Source: Neobacillus ginsengisoli
GTDB taxonomy: Bacteria > Bacillota > Bacilli > Bacillales_B > DSM-18226
DNA length: 64,000 nt
Assembly (NCBI RefSeq): GCF_030813055.1
Contig: NZ_JAUSTW010000002.1
Location: 682,001 to 746,000, forward strand
Direction of reading: 5' to 3'
Under the pieces are notes generated by a model. It searched no databases, had not been told where the DNA came from, and saw only the letters and a program-made list of their open reading frames with translations. The position numbers and the translations under genes were made by a program. This document shows, in pieces, positions 25,664 through 32,429 of this stretch (positions are counted from its first letter, which is position 1; each line of letters begins with the position of its first letter).

Positions 25664-25750
25664 AAAAAATCCATATACAGTATCATTTCCGGGCCTTTCG
25701 CGGCTCCGATTTCCCCTTCGATCTTTCCGTTTGGCCAAGTGATTGAAACG
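25648..25750 (-). pseudogene. C-terminal fragment of an unidentified minus-strand gene
   Basis: On the minus strand about 33 codons read ITWPNGKIEGEIGAAKG and so on to a TAG stop at 25650-25648, followed by the terminator hairpin. The peptide looks like genuine coding sequence but I do not recognise the family. It is cut off where the aldehyde dehydrogenase fragment begins. Confidence 0.4.
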
Positions 25751-25756
25751 ACTGTT

Positions 25757-25930
25757 AAATCAAGTTTTGTGAATCAAGGAGAAGTTTGTCTTTGTGGTTC
25801 TCGTATTTCCGTAGAGCGTCCGGCCTACGAACCGTTTCTTGCCAAATTCACAGCAAAAGTGAAAGAGCTAAAGGTCGGTCTTCCATTGAATGCTGATACC
25901 AATGTGGGAGCATTAATAGAAAAGACTTAA
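25757..25930 (+). pseudogene. Aldehyde dehydrogenase fragment (2-hydroxymuconic-semialdehyde DH-like)
   Basis: About 57 codons carrying the active-site region SSFVNQGEVCLCGSRI, with the catalytic cysteine, and LKVGLPLNADTNVGALI. This resembles the semialdehyde dehydrogenases of the catechol meta-cleavage pathway. Both the N-terminal half and the C-terminal third are missing. Confidence 0.7.
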
Positions 25931-25935
25931 ACAAG

Positions 25936-26206
25936 AATGGTGAGCTCGTGAATACTGGAGTTGGGGCGGCTGCACTTGGAAATCCGGTAAATTGTGTTGC
26001 TTGGAGCAGGTGCAGCAGTACTTGGTCATCCTGCTCATTCCGTGGCAATGTTAGCCAATATGCTTGCACGAAAAGGTGAAAAGGTACGTAAGGGTGATGT
26101 GTTTCTAACCGGAGGAATTACAAGTGCTGTTATGTTAAAATATGGCGATGTTGTAAGCGGTAAATTTGATGGTTTAGGTGAAGTAACTTTTACTGTAACA
26201 GAATAA
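25936..26206 (+). pseudogene. Fused fragments of hydratase/decarboxylase of the meta-cleavage pathway
   Basis: The first part reads NGELVNTGVGAAALGNPVNCVAW. After a frame change near 26000 a second copy of the same motif follows as LGAGAAVLGHPAHSVAMLANML and continues to a normal-looking C-terminus. Both resemble 2-oxopent-4-enoate hydratase / 4-oxalocrotonate decarboxylase, which are paralogues. The junction looks like a deletion joining the two genes. Confidence 0.65.
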
Positions 26207-26249
26207 TATGTGGTACGTTGCTTAGTCGATAAGAAAGAGGGTTAGTTTT

Positions 26250-26441
26250 ATGCCAATTATTAATGTGCAAATGATGGAAGGCAGGCCGAAAGAGAAAGTT
26301 GCAGAATTGATTCAAAATATTACAAACACGGTATCGGAAACTTTAAATGCACCAAAAGAGAGTATTCGCGTGATCGTGACGGAGATTCCAAAAACCCATT
26401 GGGGAATTGCAGGAATTCCTGTATCGGAAAGAAAAAGCTAG
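26250..26441 (+). CDS. 4-oxalocrotonate tautomerase
   Basis: 63 residues, the normal size. After removal of Met the catalytic Pro1 is exposed, and Arg11 and Arg39 are in place; Trp is at position 50 where Phe is common. The enzyme isomerises 2-hydroxymuconate in the meta-cleavage route. It has its own ribosome site (AGAGGGT) and is the only intact gene of the wrecked operon, so it may have been kept for another role. Confidence 0.87.
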   Translation: MPIINVQMMEGRPKEKVAELIQNITNTVSETLNAPKESIRVIVTEIPKTHWGIAGIPVSERKS

Positions 26442-26667: not shown

Positions 26668-27411
26668 TTGACGTTTCCTTTCTATATTTTTGGGATTCAC
26701 CCGCATCTATTATTTGAATCATTAGCGTATTTTATTGGTTTCCGTGTTTATCTATACACAAGAAATAAAGATCGAATTCCGATGGAAAAAGCACTTTGGG
26801 TAGTAGTTGGTGCAATTTTGGGAGCAGCATTTGGTGCGAAATTTCTATATTGGTTTGAAGATCCAAAAAAGACAATAGTAAACTGGAATAACATCTTCTA
26901 CTTAATGGAAGGAAAAACAATCGTCGGCGGGCTACTAGGTGGTTTGATTGGCGTGGAACTAGCCAAAAAGTTTATCGGCTGGACCCGTTCAACAGGAGAT
27001 GATTTTGTACTTCCGTTGGCAGTTGGCATGATGATTGGAAGAATCGGCTGTTTTTTAACAGGCCTGGATGATCATACATACGGAGTGGCGACCAATTGGA
27101 TAACGGGTGTTGACTTCGGTGATGGAATCAAGAGGCATCCAACGCAGCTGTACGAAATATTTTTCTTGGGTGTTCTGATCATTGTCCTTTTTCAAAAAAA
27201 AAAGAAAAAGGCGGGCTGGGAAGGGCTATTATTTCAGTTATTTATGCTTAGTTACTTAGTTTTTCGATTATTTATCGATTTTATCAAGCCAACGCCGCAC
27301 CCGTACTGGATCTTTAATAATATCCAAATGGCTTGCTTACTAGGAATCTGGTATTATATTTGGCTTATAATGAAAAAACAAATGGAAAAAAGGAGAGAAT
27401 CCTATGCCTAA
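26668..27411 (+). CDS. Lgt-like (prolipoprotein diacylglyceryl transferase family) membrane protein
   Basis: 247 residues, about seven membrane segments, starting at TTG after AAAGGAGGA. It resembles Lgt: GIHPHLLFESLAY at the N-terminus, GRIGCFLTGLDDHTYG where Lgt has GR(x)GNF(x)N, then HPTQLYE and a late RLFIDF. The Lgt HGG segment holding the essential histidine is replaced by KTIVGG and the Asn of GNF is Cys. It is therefore probably not a housekeeping Lgt but a paralogue acting on another lipid step. It overlaps the radical SAM gene by 8 nt. Confidence 0.75.
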   Translation: MTFPFYIFGIHPHLLFESLAYFIGFRVYLYTRNKDRIPMEKALWVVVGAILGAAFGAKFLYWFEDPKKTIVNWNNIFYLMEGKTIVGGLLGGLIGVELAKKFIGWTRSTGDDFVLPLAVGMMIGRIGCFLTGLDDHTYGVATNWITGVDFGDGIKRHPTQLYEIFFLGVLIIVLFQKKKKKAGWEGLLFQLFMLSYLVFRLFIDFIKPTPHPYWIFNNIQMACLLGIWYYIWLIMKKQMEKRRESYA

Positions 27412-28819
27412 TCGTCCCTATTTATTTTATGAACTAACCAACAGTATTTGCTCGACTTGTTTACGCAAAGTAGAAGCAAAGGTCATTATTGAGAATGAAA
27501 AAGTGTATCTTGTAAAAAATTGTATGCAGCACGGCCGTGAAAAGGTATTAATTTCAACTGATGTTGACTACTACAAGTGGTGCCGTGAATTTATTAAACC
27601 TTCTGAAATGCCTTATCGATGGAACACGCCGATCAAATACGGCTGCCCTTATGATTGCGGCCTTTGTCCGGACCATGAACAGCACAGCTGCTTAACATTA
27701 TTAGAAATTACCGAAAGATGCAATTTAAAATGTCCGATTTGTTATGCTGAATCATCCCCGCAAAAGGGTAGCTATCGTAGCTTAGAAAAAATTGAATTTA
27801 TGCTAGACAATATTATTAAAAACGAAAGACAAGCGGATATTGTTCAAATTAGCGGCGGTGAACCCACCATTCATCCGCAATTCTTTGAAATCCTTGATAT
27901 CGCTAAATCGAGACCGATTCGGCATATTATGGTGAATACAAACGGACTCAGGATTGCTAATGATAAAGAATTCGTCAAGCGCCTTGCGGCTTATTCTCCT
28001 GGCTTTGAAATTTATCTGCAATTCGATAGCTTTGAAAAAACAGCACTCGAAGAACTGCGGGGTGTCGACGTGCGAGATATCCGGCTAAAAGCAATTGAGA
28101 ATTTAAATGAATACAATATTTCTACTACTCTTGTGGTCACGCTGAAAAAAGGCTTAAATGATCATGAGGTTGGCAAAATCATTCATTACGGATTGCAGCA
28201 AAAATGTGTTAGGGGAGTAACTTTTCAACCGATACAAGCAGCCGGCAGATTGGAGGAATACGATCCTTCGACCAATCGTTTAACATTAAGTGAAGTCCGC
28301 CAGATGATTATCGATCAATCCAATGTGTTTGGACCAAAGGATATTATCCCGGTTCCTTGCCATCCGGATTGTCTGGCGATGGGGTATGCGTTAAAAATGA
28401 ATGGTGAGGCAACACCATTAACCGGTTTAATTGATCCCAATATTTTACTGGAAGGAGAACGCAATACGATTGTTTTTGAACAAGACGACAATATAAAAAA
28501 TATGATTTTTAAATTGTTCTCACTCAATCATTCACCGGATTCATCAGCACTTTCATTAAAAGATTTATTATGCTGCCTGCCAAAAGTTGCGATGCCGGGT
28601 GAAATCGGATACGACAATGTATTTCGCGTCATTATTATGCAGTTTTTAGATGCTTACAATTTCGATGTCCGTTCTGTAAAAAAATCATGTGTGCATATTG
28701 CTCACCCGGATGGCCGTATCATTCCGTTTGACACTTATAATTTATTTTACCGGGACGATAAAGAACTTGAATTAAAAAAAATACAGGAAGAGCTAGAGGG
28801 GAGAACCTATATTAGATAA
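27404..28819 (+). CDS. Cysteine-rich radical SAM protein, MJ0619/tetraether-synthase type
   Basis: 471 residues. Cys16, Cys19, Cys40 and His43 form a zinc-ribbon or rubredoxin-like N-terminal site. Cys81, Cys85 and Cys88 (CPYDCGLC) are an extra cluster motif. The radical SAM motif is Cys106, Cys110, Cys113 in ERCNLKCPICYA, followed by ISGGEPTIHP. Further cysteines lie in VPCHPDC and LLCCLPK. This architecture matches archaeal MJ0619/Tes and the bacterial membrane-spanning-lipid synthases, which join lipid tails by C-C bonds. Coupling to an Lgt-like gene supports a lipid substrate, but this is inference. Confidence 0.75.
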   Translation: MPNRPYLFYELTNSICSTCLRKVEAKVIIENEKVYLVKNCMQHGREKVLISTDVDYYKWCREFIKPSEMPYRWNTPIKYGCPYDCGLCPDHEQHSCLTLLEITERCNLKCPICYAESSPQKGSYRSLEKIEFMLDNIIKNERQADIVQISGGEPTIHPQFFEILDIAKSRPIRHIMVNTNGLRIANDKEFVKRLAAYSPGFEIYLQFDSFEKTALEELRGVDVRDIRLKAIENLNEYNISTTLVVTLKKGLNDHEVGKIIHYGLQQKCVRGVTFQPIQAAGRLEEYDPSTNRLTLSEVRQMIIDQSNVFGPKDIIPVPCHPDCLAMGYALKMNGEATPLTGLIDPNILLEGERNTIVFEQDDNIKNMIFKLFSLNHSPDSSALSLKDLLCCLPKVAMPGEIGYDNVFRVIIMQFLDAYNFDVRSVKKSCVHIAHPDGRIIPFDTYNLFYRDDKELELKKIQEELEGRTYIR

Positions 28820-28854
28820 TTGAATCTATCATTCTTTAAATGGGGTGAGTTAGT

Positions 28855-29145
28855 TTGGATCAACATCAGGGTGGAAAAGAGAAAAGCGGGTCGTTAAAAG
28901 ACCTTTGGCTAGGGATTGGCATTGCTGTTGGAATATACCTTCTTGGACTACTGATCATGTTTACAATGCCTCCTTTTATTTTGGTATATATATTGCTTTC
29001 ACCAATCGCTCTTATTGTCATAACGATAATAAGCTTCAAAAAAGGGAAAAAGCAGTTAGGTCAAGGATTATTAATTGGGATAGGTATTGATATCTTGTTG
29101 TTTGCAGCTTGTTTTGGGATCTTCTTCTCTAATTTAGGCGGTTAA
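28855..29145 (+). CDS. Small membrane protein
   Basis: 96 residues starting at TTG, with a charged N-terminus (residues 1-16) and about three hydrophobic segments. No family recognised. GGGGTGA lies 6 nt upstream of the start and the gene follows the radical SAM gene by 35 nt with no terminator, so it probably belongs to the same operon. Confidence 0.65.
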   Translation: MDQHQGGKEKSGSLKDLWLGIGIAVGIYLLGLLIMFTMPPFILVYILLSPIALIVITIISFKKGKKQLGQGLLIGIGIDILLFAACFGIFFSNLGG

Positions 29146-29277
29146 TCTATGTCTATAAATGGCAGGAACTGTAAGGATTGCCTGCTTAAAGCGGATAATG
29201 AAAAAATTTGTAAAAGTTTGTGAAAAGAGATTATGATTATTAAGAACAAAACTATTTTAACAATAAGGGGGATTTCC

Positions 29278-29763
29278 TTGGATATCTTAGAAATAATCAA
29301 AACACGCCGTAATATAAAAATCTTCAAATTGGATCCCATAAATCCGGATAAACTCCATTTGTGGCTAGAGGCTGCGGCAATGGCTCCGAATCATCGAATG
29401 ACAGAACCTTGGGAGGTTTATATAGTCGGTCCTGAGACTAGAGCAAAATTAAACCATAAAACAAACTTCGGTGATGCTCCTGTTGTCTTAGCTATTTTGT
29501 CTAAGCATGGTGCCACAGCCATTGAAACAGAGGAAAATGCACTGGCAACAGCCTGTTTTGTTCAAAACTTTAACCTCGCTGCTTGGGCAGAGGGTGTGGG
29601 AACATTCTGGTCTTCAATGGGTGGAAATCCGAAAAATCGTGAAATACTTGGTGTTCCAGATGGATATGACGTCATTGGCGTATTTGGTGTGGGCTATCCG
29701 GATGAAACCCGAGAACCAAAGCAGCGGACCCCAATTCAAAATAAATTGAAGCAGCTTTTGTAG
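29278..29763 (+). CDS. Nitroreductase-family flavoprotein
   Basis: About 161 residues. RRNIKIFKLDPI near the N-terminus (FMN-binding RRSIR-like), AAAMAPNHRMTEPWEVYIV and the C-terminal GVGYPDETREPKQR are standard for the family. The enzyme likely reduces quinones, nitro compounds or enones with NAD(P)H. An in-frame ATG exists at 29233, but AAGGGGGA lies just before the TTG at 29278 and family alignment starts there. A terminator follows. Confidence 0.82.
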   Translation: MDILEIIKTRRNIKIFKLDPINPDKLHLWLEAAAMAPNHRMTEPWEVYIVGPETRAKLNHKTNFGDAPVVLAILSKHGATAIETEENALATACFVQNFNLAAWAEGVGTFWSSMGGNPKNREILGVPDGYDVIGVFGVGYPDETREPKQRTPIQNKLKQLL

Positions 29764-29786
29764 GCTAATTTATTTATTGTGGAATT

Positions 29787-29826
29787 AAAAAGACAAAAAG
29801 CGTAATTCCGGCTTTTTGTCTTTTTC
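29787..29826 (+). terminator. Terminator of the nitroreductase gene
   Basis: Stem AAAAAGACAAAAAGC/GCTTTTTGTCTTTTT, 9-nt loop. Confidence 0.88.
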
Positions 29827-29993
29827 AATACTTTTGGCGCAAAATTCCTTTTGCATCTCAAGATATTCAAATAATTGGCTGCAAGTAAATGAAACTCATA
29901 GAATCATTTGTTAAAATAAGGGAATTCTACTAATTAAAATGTGTAAATAAACCATCAATTATTATGATGAAAGATTCCGTAAGTTGGTTTATA

Positions 29994-30009
29994 TGTGAAT
30001 CAAATCACA
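29994..30009. promoter_or_regulatory. Fnr/Rex-type palindrome before cydA
   Basis: TGTGAATCAAATCACA matches the Fnr/Crp form TGTGA-N6-TCACA exactly and partly the Rex form. A possible -10 (GATGAT at 30031) would place the centre near -41.5, the position for class II activation. Confidence 0.6.
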
Positions 30010-30062
30010 ATGAATGGAATACATATTGTAGATGATAAATTTTTGAATGAGGTGAGAAGGAA

Positions 30063-31400
30063 TTGGATAATGTTATCTTAAGCCGAATGCTAACCACTTT
30101 AACATTAGCTTTTCATATTATTTTTGCCACAATTGGGGTAGGCGTACCCTTAATGATCTCGATTGCTGAGTTCGTTGGTATTAAAAAGAAAGACTCCCAT
30201 TTTATTTTACTAGCACGAAGATGGGCAAGAGGGTATACGATTACAGTAGGGGTCGGGGTGGTTACCGGAACATGTATCGGCTTGCAGCTGTCGCTTTTAT
30301 GGCCAAGTTTTATGAGGATAGCCGGCCAAGCGATCAGTTTGCCATTATTCCTCGAAACCTTTGCATTTTTCTTTGAAGCCATTTTCCTAGGAATATATTT
30401 GTACACATGGGATCGCTTTAAAAAGCAGTTAAACCATTGGATGTTATCCATTCCCGTGGTGCTTGGTGCAGCATTGTCCGCTTTTTTTATCACAACAGTG
30501 AATGCCTTTATGAATACACCACAAGGTTTTAAATTAGTAAATGGAGTAATTGTCACCTTAGATCCACTAAAGGCAATGTTTAATCCTGCAACACCATCGA
30601 AAACCTTTCACGTCATCGTGACGGCCTATTTAAGCTCTGCTTTTCTTTTGGCGTCAATTGCTGCACTCCAAATTTTAAAGGGCAAATTCACAGATTATAC
30701 AAAAAAAGCTTTAAAATTAACGGTTACAGCGGCGTTTATTTTTGCTATTTTAACTGGAATTGCCGGGGACTTATCCGCAAAATTTTTAGCCCAATATCAG
30801 CCTGAAAAATTAGCAGCGATTGAATGGCATTTTCAAACAGAAAAAGGAGCGGATTTGATTCTTTTCGGTACATTAGAAAAAAATACAAACGTGATTAAAT
30901 ATGCGATTCATTTACCAAAGATGCTAAGTTTTTTGTCTTTTGATAATTTCGAAGGGAAGGTAATTGGTTTAGATCAATTTAAAGCTAATGAAATTCCTCC
31001 ACTCTATATTCATTATTTATTTGATACGAAAGTAACGTTTGCGATGTTAATGATTTTTGTCTCCTTTTGCTTTGTCGCTTTTTCGATATGGAAAAAACAA
31101 TGGACCTATAATAAATGGCTGCTTCGTTCCATTGTTCTTTGCGGCCCATTAGGCTTTATTTCAATTGAATTAGGGTGGATATTAGCAGAGGTTGGCAGGC
31201 AGCCATGGATTTTAAGGGGATATATGAAAGTATCAGAAGCTGCAACGACATCAAGAGGAGTAGGTACGATGGTTTGGTTGTTTTTTGCGTTGTACGCAGT
31301 TTTAGGAGTTATTTGTACCGTCGTACTTAGAAAGATGTTTCGAAATAATCCGGCTGAAGCTGAGCTTGAATTCCGATTTCAGGGGGATAGAAAGGAGTAG
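30063..31400 (+). CDS. cydA: Cytochrome bd quinol oxidase subunit I (YthA/CIO type)
   Basis: 445 residues, about nine membrane helices, short Q-loop form. The N-terminal LTLAFHIIFATIGVGVP holds the heme-ligand histidine, and AIEWHFQTEKGADL is the conserved glutamate/histidine region. The shorter length and the motifs fit the cyanide-insensitive group (B. subtilis YthA). It reduces oxygen at the membrane under low oxygen. The TTG start follows GAGGTGA by 7 nt; the in-frame ATG 8 codons later is an alternative. Subunit II follows after 6 nt. Confidence 0.9.
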   Translation: MDNVILSRMLTTLTLAFHIIFATIGVGVPLMISIAEFVGIKKKDSHFILLARRWARGYTITVGVGVVTGTCIGLQLSLLWPSFMRIAGQAISLPLFLETFAFFFEAIFLGIYLYTWDRFKKQLNHWMLSIPVVLGAALSAFFITTVNAFMNTPQGFKLVNGVIVTLDPLKAMFNPATPSKTFHVIVTAYLSSAFLLASIAALQILKGKFTDYTKKALKLTVTAAFIFAILTGIAGDLSAKFLAQYQPEKLAAIEWHFQTEKGADLILFGTLEKNTNVIKYAIHLPKMLSFLSFDNFEGKVIGLDQFKANEIPPLYIHYLFDTKVTFAMLMIFVSFCFVAFSIWKKQWTYNKWLLRSIVLCGPLGFISIELGWILAEVGRQPWILRGYMKVSEAATTSRGVGTMVWLFFALYAVLGVICTVVLRKMFRNNPAEAELEFRFQGDRKE

Positions 31401-31406
31401 GTAGGT

Positions 31407-32429
31407 ATGAACATTCAAATTTTAGGAATAACCGTTTTGTGGATTTTTCTATATGGCTATTTAATTGTAGCCTCGATTGATTTTGGTGCCGGCTTCTTCG
31501 CCTATTATGGAAAAATCACAAAACAGGACCATATCATGAACAAACTGATTAGCAGATATTTATCGCCGGTATGGGAAGTAACAAATGTTTTTTTCGTATT
31601 TTTCTTTGTAGGTATGGTCGGTTTTTTTCCTGAAACCGCCTTTTATTATGGCACCGCCTTACTTATACCCGGCAGTATTTCGCTCGTTTTGCTTGCGATT
31701 CGCGGCTCCTTTTATGCCTTCAATAATTACGGTTCTAAGGATAATAATATTTACTTATTTTTATACGGAGTAACAGGTTTGCTTATCCCCGCCTCGCTTT
31801 CAACAGTATTAACCATATCTGAAGGGGGGTTAATTAAAAAAAGCGGTAACAATGTCGAATTTCTCGCAAAAGAGTTATTTACAAACTTCTATTCATGGAG
31901 TGTTGTGATATTGGCCATTGTTTCTGTTTTGTTCATAAGCGCCAGTTTTCTTACCTATTACGCGGATCGGGCAGATGACGAAAAGGCGAGGGAAATATTA
32001 CGTCGATTTGCTTTATTGTGGTGTTTTCCCACCATTTTGGCCAGTCTTTTAGTGTTTATTTCGTTAAAAGAGCATAATTTACAACACTTCAATCGAATCG
32101 TCAATCATTATTGGTGGATGTTTGCCCTTTCCTTGCTGTGTTTTTTAGCTGCATCCTTTTTGATATGGAGACGCAGAAATTACGGTACTGCGTTTATTTT
32201 CGTTATGTTTCAGTTTTTCTTTGCTTTTTTTGGATATGGGGCATCACATTTACCTTTTATATTGGATCCTTATATCACGATATATAGCGGTTATACCAAT
32301 CCGACAATGGGGACTTCCTTGGTCATCGCGTTTATTTGTGGATTATTAATCCTGGTTCCTTCATTAATCCTTCTGATGCGATTATTCTTATTCGATGCGG
32401 ACTATGTAAAAGGGGGAAAAAAGGTGTAA
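31407..32429 (+). CDS. cydB: Cytochrome bd quinol oxidase subunit II (YthB type)
   Basis: 340 residues with about eight or nine hydrophobic helices and the family pattern GYLIVASIDFGAGFFAYY near the N-terminus. It partners CydA and stabilises the heme-bearing complex. AGGTAGGT lies just before the ATG. The assembly transporter genes cydCD are not adjacent. Confidence 0.88.
   Translation: MNIQILGITVLWIFLYGYLIVASIDFGAGFFAYYGKITKQDHIMNKLISRYLSPVWEVTNVFFVFFFVGMVGFFPETAFYYGTALLIPGSISLVLLAIRGSFYAFNNYGSKDNNIYLFLYGVTGLLIPASLSTVLTISEGGLIKKSGNNVEFLAKELFTNFYSWSVVILAIVSVLFISASFLTYYADRADDEKAREILRRFALLWCFPTILASLLVFISLKEHNLQHFNRIVNHYWWMFALSLLCFLAASFLIWRRRNYGTAFIFVMFQFFFAFFGYGASHLPFILDPYITIYSGYTNPTMGTSLVIAFICGLLILVPSLILLMRLFLFDADYVKGGKKV

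Follow-up and report, generated by a model that had tools for sequence, protein, structure and literature searches.

A 64,000-nucleotide stretch of the Neobacillus ginsengisoli genome (contig NZ_JAUSTW010000002.1, positions 682,001 to 746,000; hereafter the window) carries consecutive genes for an Lgt-like membrane protein, a radical S-adenosylmethionine (SAM) protein of the Tes/MJ0619 type (hereafter rSAM) and a small membrane protein, and it raises the question of what a bacterial relative of the tail-coupling enzyme Tes does beside an altered diacylglyceryl transferase. Bacterial Tes homologues, 456 at E < 1e-50 and identity > 20%, were counted in 2022 without tested function and were proposed as sources of branched tetraether climate-proxy lipids (PMC8941075; this and the other cited papers are represented here by excerpts). 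By the cut-offs used there, the Lgt-linked rSAM family may be among those 456. We found that the three genes almost certainly constitute one functional module, and one clade of bacterial Tes homologues appears tied to an altered Lgt and a cysteine-tailed membrane protein. An invariant Cys128 in the Lgt-like protein, a set of small proteins with a common cysteine tail and changed C-terminal cysteines in the rSAM go beyond the first-pass annotation of this DNA. Of the models considered, the best, held tentatively and at somewhat less than even confidence, is that lipid tails are the target of the rSAM and that the Lgt-like protein transfers a unit derived from phosphatidylglycerol (PG) to the small-protein cysteine.

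Co-occurrence of the three genes

The module comprises three genes (TM, transmembrane; AF2, AlphaFold2):

26668..27411, + strand: Lgt-like membrane protein, 247 amino acids, TTG start (Pfam LGT and AF2 model)
27404..28819, + strand: Tes/MJ0619-type rSAM protein, 471 amino acids, ATG start
28855..29145, + strand: small three-TM membrane protein, 96 amino acids, TTG start, with a C-terminal TM-Cys tail

The Lgt-like and rSAM reading frames share 8 nucleotides, the coordinates agreeing with the overlap annotated earlier for the 471-residue gene, and a gap of 35 nucleotides separates the rSAM from the small open reading frame (ORF). With 84.9 bits against Pfam LGT (cut-off 24.9), the Lgt-like protein passed the gathering score of the Lgt superfamily (PF01790), while the rSAM matched Radical_SAM (89.6 bits) and Zn_ribbon_HMPTM (63.2 bits) and the small protein matched no Pfam family at E <= 1.

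In a scan of species-level genomes the Lgt-like gene lay directly upstream of the rSAM gene in 35 of 35 loci, the closest rSAM among these being that of Neobacillus pocheonensis (96% identity). Among 61 genomes of the Neobacillus soli genus, the rSAM, the Lgt-like protein and the small protein all occurred in an identical set of 21. Two genomes of this genus (G804 and G811) retain as sole remnant a tail fragment of the small gene; it lies among genes that border the module elsewhere in Neobacillus, and a search of this region gave neither a Lgt-like nor a rSAM match. In a class-wide sample of 299 genomes, 22 had a match to the rSAM query; 20 of these reached at least 66% identity, one with an in-frame stop. 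In the phylum to which the GBChlB genome belongs, 25 of 296 genomes matched, 21 of them with at least 56% identity (again including one with an in-frame stop), and 19 of these 21 have a Lgt-like gene inside the retrieved stretch. For the phylum sampled around an Omnitrophota genome the figure was 14 of 193, with 2 reaching at least 66%. The rSAM/Lgt-like pair and a cysteine-tail ORF are also present on a plasmid record of Persicobacter psychrovividus (Bacteroidota), and a plasmid of Mycobacterium branderi (Actinomycetota; L147) carries a 29%-identical rSAM, an annotated Lgt-family gene and two cysteine-tail genes. With phylum names taken from the named locus at the centre of each sample and from the named plasmid records, the clade spans Bacillota, Bacteroidota, Omnitrophota and Actinomycetota.

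The absence of any functional link, the genes being neighbours by chance or in decay, would fit the patchy spread (the 22 class genomes of 299) and is contradicted by the shared set of 21 genomes; the cross-phylum pairing and the invariant residues described below also speak against it, and we regard it as extremely improbable. The common distribution over 21 of 61 genomes, combined with the Lgt-linked rSAM clade, is the reason for judging the module real.

Counts below refer to distinct rows, given that L025/L075 and L095/L098 are the same places and eight Lgt-like rows were duplicated; before deduplication there were 82 rSAM rows and 89 Lgt-like rows, and the small tail stood at 80/84 versus 2/17. 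Another 25 loci were left out as shorter copies of places covered by another locus. L080 was rejected as a Lgt-like member and excluded, because it has the HGG and GNF of a canonical Lgt and the rSAM nearby is a broken fragment. At one N. pocheonensis locus (L033, 5266-7413) the Lgt-like and rSAM genes stand in one open frame, which may represent a gene fusion or a draft-genome indel; the single frame depends on a small indel within an A-rich run of this one draft genome, possibly a sequencing error, and carries little weight.

The radical SAM protein and its relation to Tes

The sites of the rSAM compared among the 81 distinct Lgt-linked rows were as follows:

27449..27532, + strand: rubredoxin-type site C16-x2-C19-x20-C40-x2-H43 (Cys in 81/81, His in 79/81)
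27644..27676, + strand: N-terminal auxiliary cluster site C81/C85/C88/H91 (each in 78/81; 11/11 Tes rows)
27689..27691, + strand: Cys96, fixed in the Lgt-linked clade (81/81; Cys in 0/11 Tes rows)
27719..27742, + strand: radical SAM motif CX3CX2C, C106/C110/C113 (81/81)
28358..28360, + strand: Cys319, fixed in the Lgt-linked clade (81/81; Cys in 0/11 Tes rows)
28688..28690, + strand: Cys429, beside Ser428 at the Tes C455 position (80/81)

The cysteine sites listed by the first-pass annotation (C16/C19/C40/H43, C81/C85/C88 and C106/C110/C113) were all recovered, and H91 joins the second of them. The solved sequence nearest to the window rSAM was MJ0619 (7tol, E 3.1e-70). The rSAM has the Tes fold and shares with Tes the CX2CX20CX2H rubredoxin site, spaced as in MJ0619 (C9X2C12X20C33X2H36; PMC9433317), the N-terminal C/C/C/H cluster and the CX3CX2C sites. 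SAM-pocket residues Y204, D208, R219 and Q275 are present in 81 of 81 distinct rSAM rows.

By contrast, the C-terminal cysteines differ from those of Tes. C338, C455 and C470, whose invariance in 11 of 11 Tes rows suggests that they would be the ligands of the Tes C-terminal cluster, correspond to C323, S428 and D443 in the window rSAM, and Tes Met439, the residue that the excerpts name for that cluster, is kept as Met412. C96 and C319, fixed in the Lgt-linked rSAMs, are not cysteine in the 11 Tes rows. Cys429 is not clade-specific, since 16 of 22 other rows and one Tes row of the 11, that of MJ0619, also have cysteine at its position. The best NCBIfam model for the window rSAM was the TrsS radical SAM (seleno)protein (NF045646, 339.9 bits, under the cut-off of 490), and the Tes/GDGT-MAS (MJ0619) model NF045702 gave 294.6 bits, below its cut-off of 450.

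A midpoint-rooted tree was computed with IQ-TREE on 74 rows below 88% identity, selected from 11 archaeal Tes rows and 104 rows for the loci, one of them the window. One group of 50 (support 100/99) took in every row that has a Lgt-like gene nearby (47 rows) plus L140, L141 and L145, and the 11 Tes rows fell outside it, among methyltransferase-linked and other relatives; placement is uncertain for the long-branched rows L143, L146, L133, L134 and L145. In L140 and L141 the Lgt-like gene is located away from the rSAM (E 8.7e-94 and 1.9e-85) and carries the motifs KT[IV]VGG and GRIGC, and a search covering the plasmid of L145 gave no Lgt-like match there. Unlike Tes, the Lgt-linked rSAMs form a separate clade paired with Lgt-like and small genes. 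The Tes-type identity assigned at first holds for the fold, the N-terminal iron sites and the SAM pocket and fails for the C338/C455/C470 set and for membership of the Tes clade. Presence of the Lgt-linked clade alone, by homology, should not be taken to signal membrane-spanning lipids.

Several relatives deserve separate mention. The rows without the N-terminal cluster cysteines (L132, L147 and L148) form one branch and keep the Lgt-like gene; one cysteine-tail gene was found at L132, two at L147 and none at L148. Several Omnitrophota genomes (L091-L098) hold adjacent pairs of diverged Tes-like rSAM genes. A group of diverged rSAM relatives (L124-L131) has 38-43% identity, and some of its members have a DUF4395-type gene before the Lgt-like gene.

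What the rSAM does with these features can be read in more than one way. As a membrane-spanning lipid synthase, it would join two phospholipid acyl tails, the part of the Lgt-like and small proteins being only to hold the lipids or present them. The Tes fold, the rubredoxin and N-terminal cluster sites and the SAM-pocket residues agree with such a role, as does methionine at the Met439 position in 69 of 81 rSAM rows; Tes variants of Met439 and Tyr459 are still active (PMC9433317), and changes there are therefore no argument against coupling. Iso-diabolic-acid lipids are known from some Bacillota (PMC13274423). However, the Tes reaction proceeds via a carbon bound to sulfur of one of its clusters (PMC9433317), whereas the C338/C455/C470 set is not kept in the window rSAM, which also lacks about 20 residues. 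The known bacterial coupling enzyme Mss, the models of which are said to retain the Tes catalytic architecture, is listed with Ger in one Bacillaceae and five Paenibacillaceae species (PMC13274423). Synthesis of this kind would also leave the conserved cysteine of the small protein without explanation, and we consider it unlikely.

A control restricted to the Zn_ribbon_HMPTM domain of the window rSAM detected it in 3 of 14 genomes, each of them archaeal, with no hit in T. maritima, which should carry an Mss.

The changed C-terminal cysteine set fits a tail modification other than coupling, such as methylation, desaturation or sulfur insertion, whose substrates would be free phospholipids, the small protein then serving as a structural subunit. 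Class I methyltransferase genes adjoin Tes-like rSAM genes in L143, L145 and L146 (the last on a haloarchaeal plasmid), and in 7 of 8 wide loci of the roughly 40%-identity group (L124-L131) the rSAM is adjoined by a gene of our family 11, two scanned members of which are ICMT/PEMT-like methyltransferases. The window module, however, has no methyltransferase gene, and a further objection arises from the small proteins below; this explanation likewise strikes us as improbable.

We lean towards the broader statement that the rSAM acts on lipid tails, as fold and motifs suggest. Cross-linking of the tails is possible and is not favoured over other tail chemistry: given the changed C-terminal cysteines and the protein partner, outcomes other than Tes-like coupling are at least as likely. 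The cross-linking or alkylation of lipid tails first proposed for this operon is thus partly supported: the lipid-tail part draws on the Tes fold and motifs, and coupling has no preference over the rest.

The Lgt-like protein

The codon at which the Lgt-like protein departs from the E. coli signature is:

27049..27051, + strand: Cys128 (GRIGCF; Asn in the E. coli signature GRLGN), Cys in 81/81 distinct members

Before duplicate removal the same position was cysteine in 89 of 89 rows. The histidine position of HGG is V86 in the window, with the two glycines kept, and among the 81 distinct members it is V in 63, M in 10 and L in 4, so that the absence of the HGG histidine and the GNF asparagine noted earlier is borne out as V86 and C128. 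Other residues are retained: R125, R200 and Y196 are each present in 81 of 81 distinct members, and position 204 is E or D in all 81 (D204 in the window). These correspond to R143, R239, Y235 and E243 of E. coli Lgt, which together with N146 form one hydrogen-bond network around the PG site; R143, Y235 and R239 also line the second site for PG or diacylglycerol, and the active site faces the periplasm (PMC4728403). The AF2 model of the Lgt-like protein had E. coli Lgt (5azb; E 1.7e-5, probability 1.00) as its sole match in the PDB at E <= 0.001. Likeness to Lgt thus extends to the fold and the network positions, while the protein differs in the mostly V, M or L residue at the H103 position, in the constant cysteine at the N146 position and in its score against the TIGR00544 equivalog (55 versus a cut-off of 118.9). 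It is also an additional copy, as each of the 10 genomes tested contains one or more other LGT-family proteins scoring above 180 bits; in Chlorobi-type and Omnitrophota genomes the further LGT copies seen are likewise not of the HGG/GNF kind. Judged by the kept residues, the Lgt-like protein quite probably uses PG.

Small proteins with a C-terminal TM-Cys tail

The conserved residue of the small protein lies near its end:

29110..29112, + strand: Cys86 (LLFAACFG); tail in 79/83 distinct Lgt-linked loci

Hydropathy predicted three TM helices in the window protein, in line with the three-helix membrane protein originally annotated 3' of the rSAM gene. Across loci the small proteins are a varied set with a common end rather than one sequence family. 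The shared end is a hydrophobic helix that contains a single cysteine, with about 10 residues after it, approximately [LI]L[LG]x[GATS][AI]C[FG]G. With one rule for all loci, a TM-Cys-tail ORF was found in 79 of 83 distinct Lgt-linked loci versus 2 of 16 others; of these two, L089 does not convince on inspection by eye, and L140 has its Lgt-like gene elsewhere in the genome. An earlier rule demanding at least two TM helices missed single-TM forms and gave 69/83 versus 3/18. From a background sample of 20 stretches that we chose from 20 such genomes (375 kb, both strands), simple arithmetic yields an expectation of about 0.1 hit near a given locus on the right strand.

Lysine and arginine were more frequent before the helix than after it in 93 of 103 ORFs, equal in 2 and fewer in 8, which predicts an in-to-out passage that leaves the cysteine close to the outer side. 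The small protein is present in two or three copies at several loci. At Paenibacillus and Saccharibacillus loci, a cysteine-rich, zinc-ribbon-like part precedes the tail; the one example scanned scored 21.1 with B-box, below the cut-off of 24.1. A model of the small protein searched against 14 Bacilli genomes had matches in 10, all at the locus except for a weak hit in G279 (E 0.003), and none in the other 4, at least 3 of which hold loci of the zinc-ribbon kind or close kin. As far as this model detects it, the small protein is therefore no widely distributed sorting tag.

Variable heads joined to one conserved tail are the pattern expected of a substrate set. For a mere structural subunit, as in the modification of free phospholipids described above, there would be no need to conserve a single cysteine across N-terminal parts as different as a TM hairpin and a zinc-ribbon-like form. 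The small proteins could also be substrates of the rSAM itself, as with radical peptide maturases, the Lgt-like protein then serving as a membrane partner or adding a lipid later. Small proteins with one conserved residue, at times two or three per locus, would suit this proposal, and the core fold of the rSAM is common to rSAM peptide maturases as well; the Tes fold and Tes-type sites are shared with a lipid enzyme, and we rate maturation of the small protein as quite unlikely. That the small-protein cysteine is lipidated is a possibility to which the conserved tail points, and we would put it a little short of an even chance.

A model for the module

Taken together, the features of the three proteins suggest a scheme in which they would act as one membrane lipid-modification module. 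At the inner face, the rSAM, judging by its fold and motifs, would generate a radical on an aliphatic lipid tail. The Lgt-like protein would bind PG through its kept arginines and, with the invariant Cys128 at the E. coli Asn146 position and mostly without the histidine, might move a PG-derived acyl or diacylglyceryl unit. As putative acceptor we propose the small-protein cysteine, placed by prediction where the last helix, running in-to-out, ends on the outer side, a topology like that of a prolipoprotein lipobox cysteine; the product would be a membrane protein with a radical-modified lipid anchor.

A number of points weigh against this scheme. H103 substitutions, including H103Y and H103Q, abolish the activity of E. 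coli Lgt (PMC4728403), and given the loss of the HGG histidine the Lgt-like protein may be non-catalytic. The swaps themselves are also less telling than they look: Y or Q occupies the histidine position in 3 of 9 Asn-type Lgt copies, making histidine loss nothing special, and the asparagine-to-cysteine change occurs in 6 of 15 comparison rows, which are LGT-family proteins unlinked to this rSAM. The changed active-site residues of the Lgt-like protein are a weak point of the proposed mechanism. As to the acceptor, the small gene was not found in 4 of the 83 Lgt-linked loci, and L077, one of the 79 counted hits, does not look credible. Cysteine was present in 13 of 30 small C-terminal-TM ORFs of the arbitrary background stretches, versus 103 of 120 at Lgt-linked loci. 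A standard lipobox, [LVI][ASTVI][GAS]C, lies close to the N-terminus; the tail departs from it, reading FAAC near the C-terminus in the window, and set-wide it has mostly F, L or N at -3, G, A, T or S at -2 and A or I at -1.

The scheme in its fullest form, a new lipidation system in which a Cys-type Lgt paralogue lipidates a C-terminal TM cysteine and a Tes-related enzyme alters or cross-links the tails to give a radical-modified, possibly membrane-spanning anchor, is in our view unlikely as a whole. As a compact system in hosts that can be cultured, such as Heyndrickxia and Neobacillus species, the module would lend itself to direct work on new lipid or protein lipidation chemistry.

The open-licence literature yielded nothing on a Tes-like rSAM/Lgt-like pair, subscription papers and preprints lying mostly outside that search. 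The excerpts of PMC9433317, PMC8941075, PMC11868695, PMC13274423 and PMC4728403 mention no Lgt-like partner of a Tes-like enzyme, and that of PMC8941075 names neither a Lgt-like nor a cysteine-tail partner for the bacterial Tes homologues. Papers containing both 'radical SAM' and 'diacylglyceryl transferase' do not treat the pair, as far as their titles and the starts of their abstracts indicate.

Surroundings of the module in the window

Promoter and terminator scans returned no more sites than shuffled sequences did. A TATTCTGATAATATA-like box is located upstream of the module in most of 16 aligned upstream regions (that before 26668 in the window and those of 15 loci). At 25739-26441 of the window, aldehyde dehydrogenase and FAA-hydrolase-type fragments are followed by a 4-oxalocrotonate-tautomerase-like ORF, and this region may be a decayed aromatic-degradation operon. 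On the 3' side, at 29233-32429, the module is followed by a nitroreductase-family gene and the genes for cytochrome bd oxidase subunits I and II.

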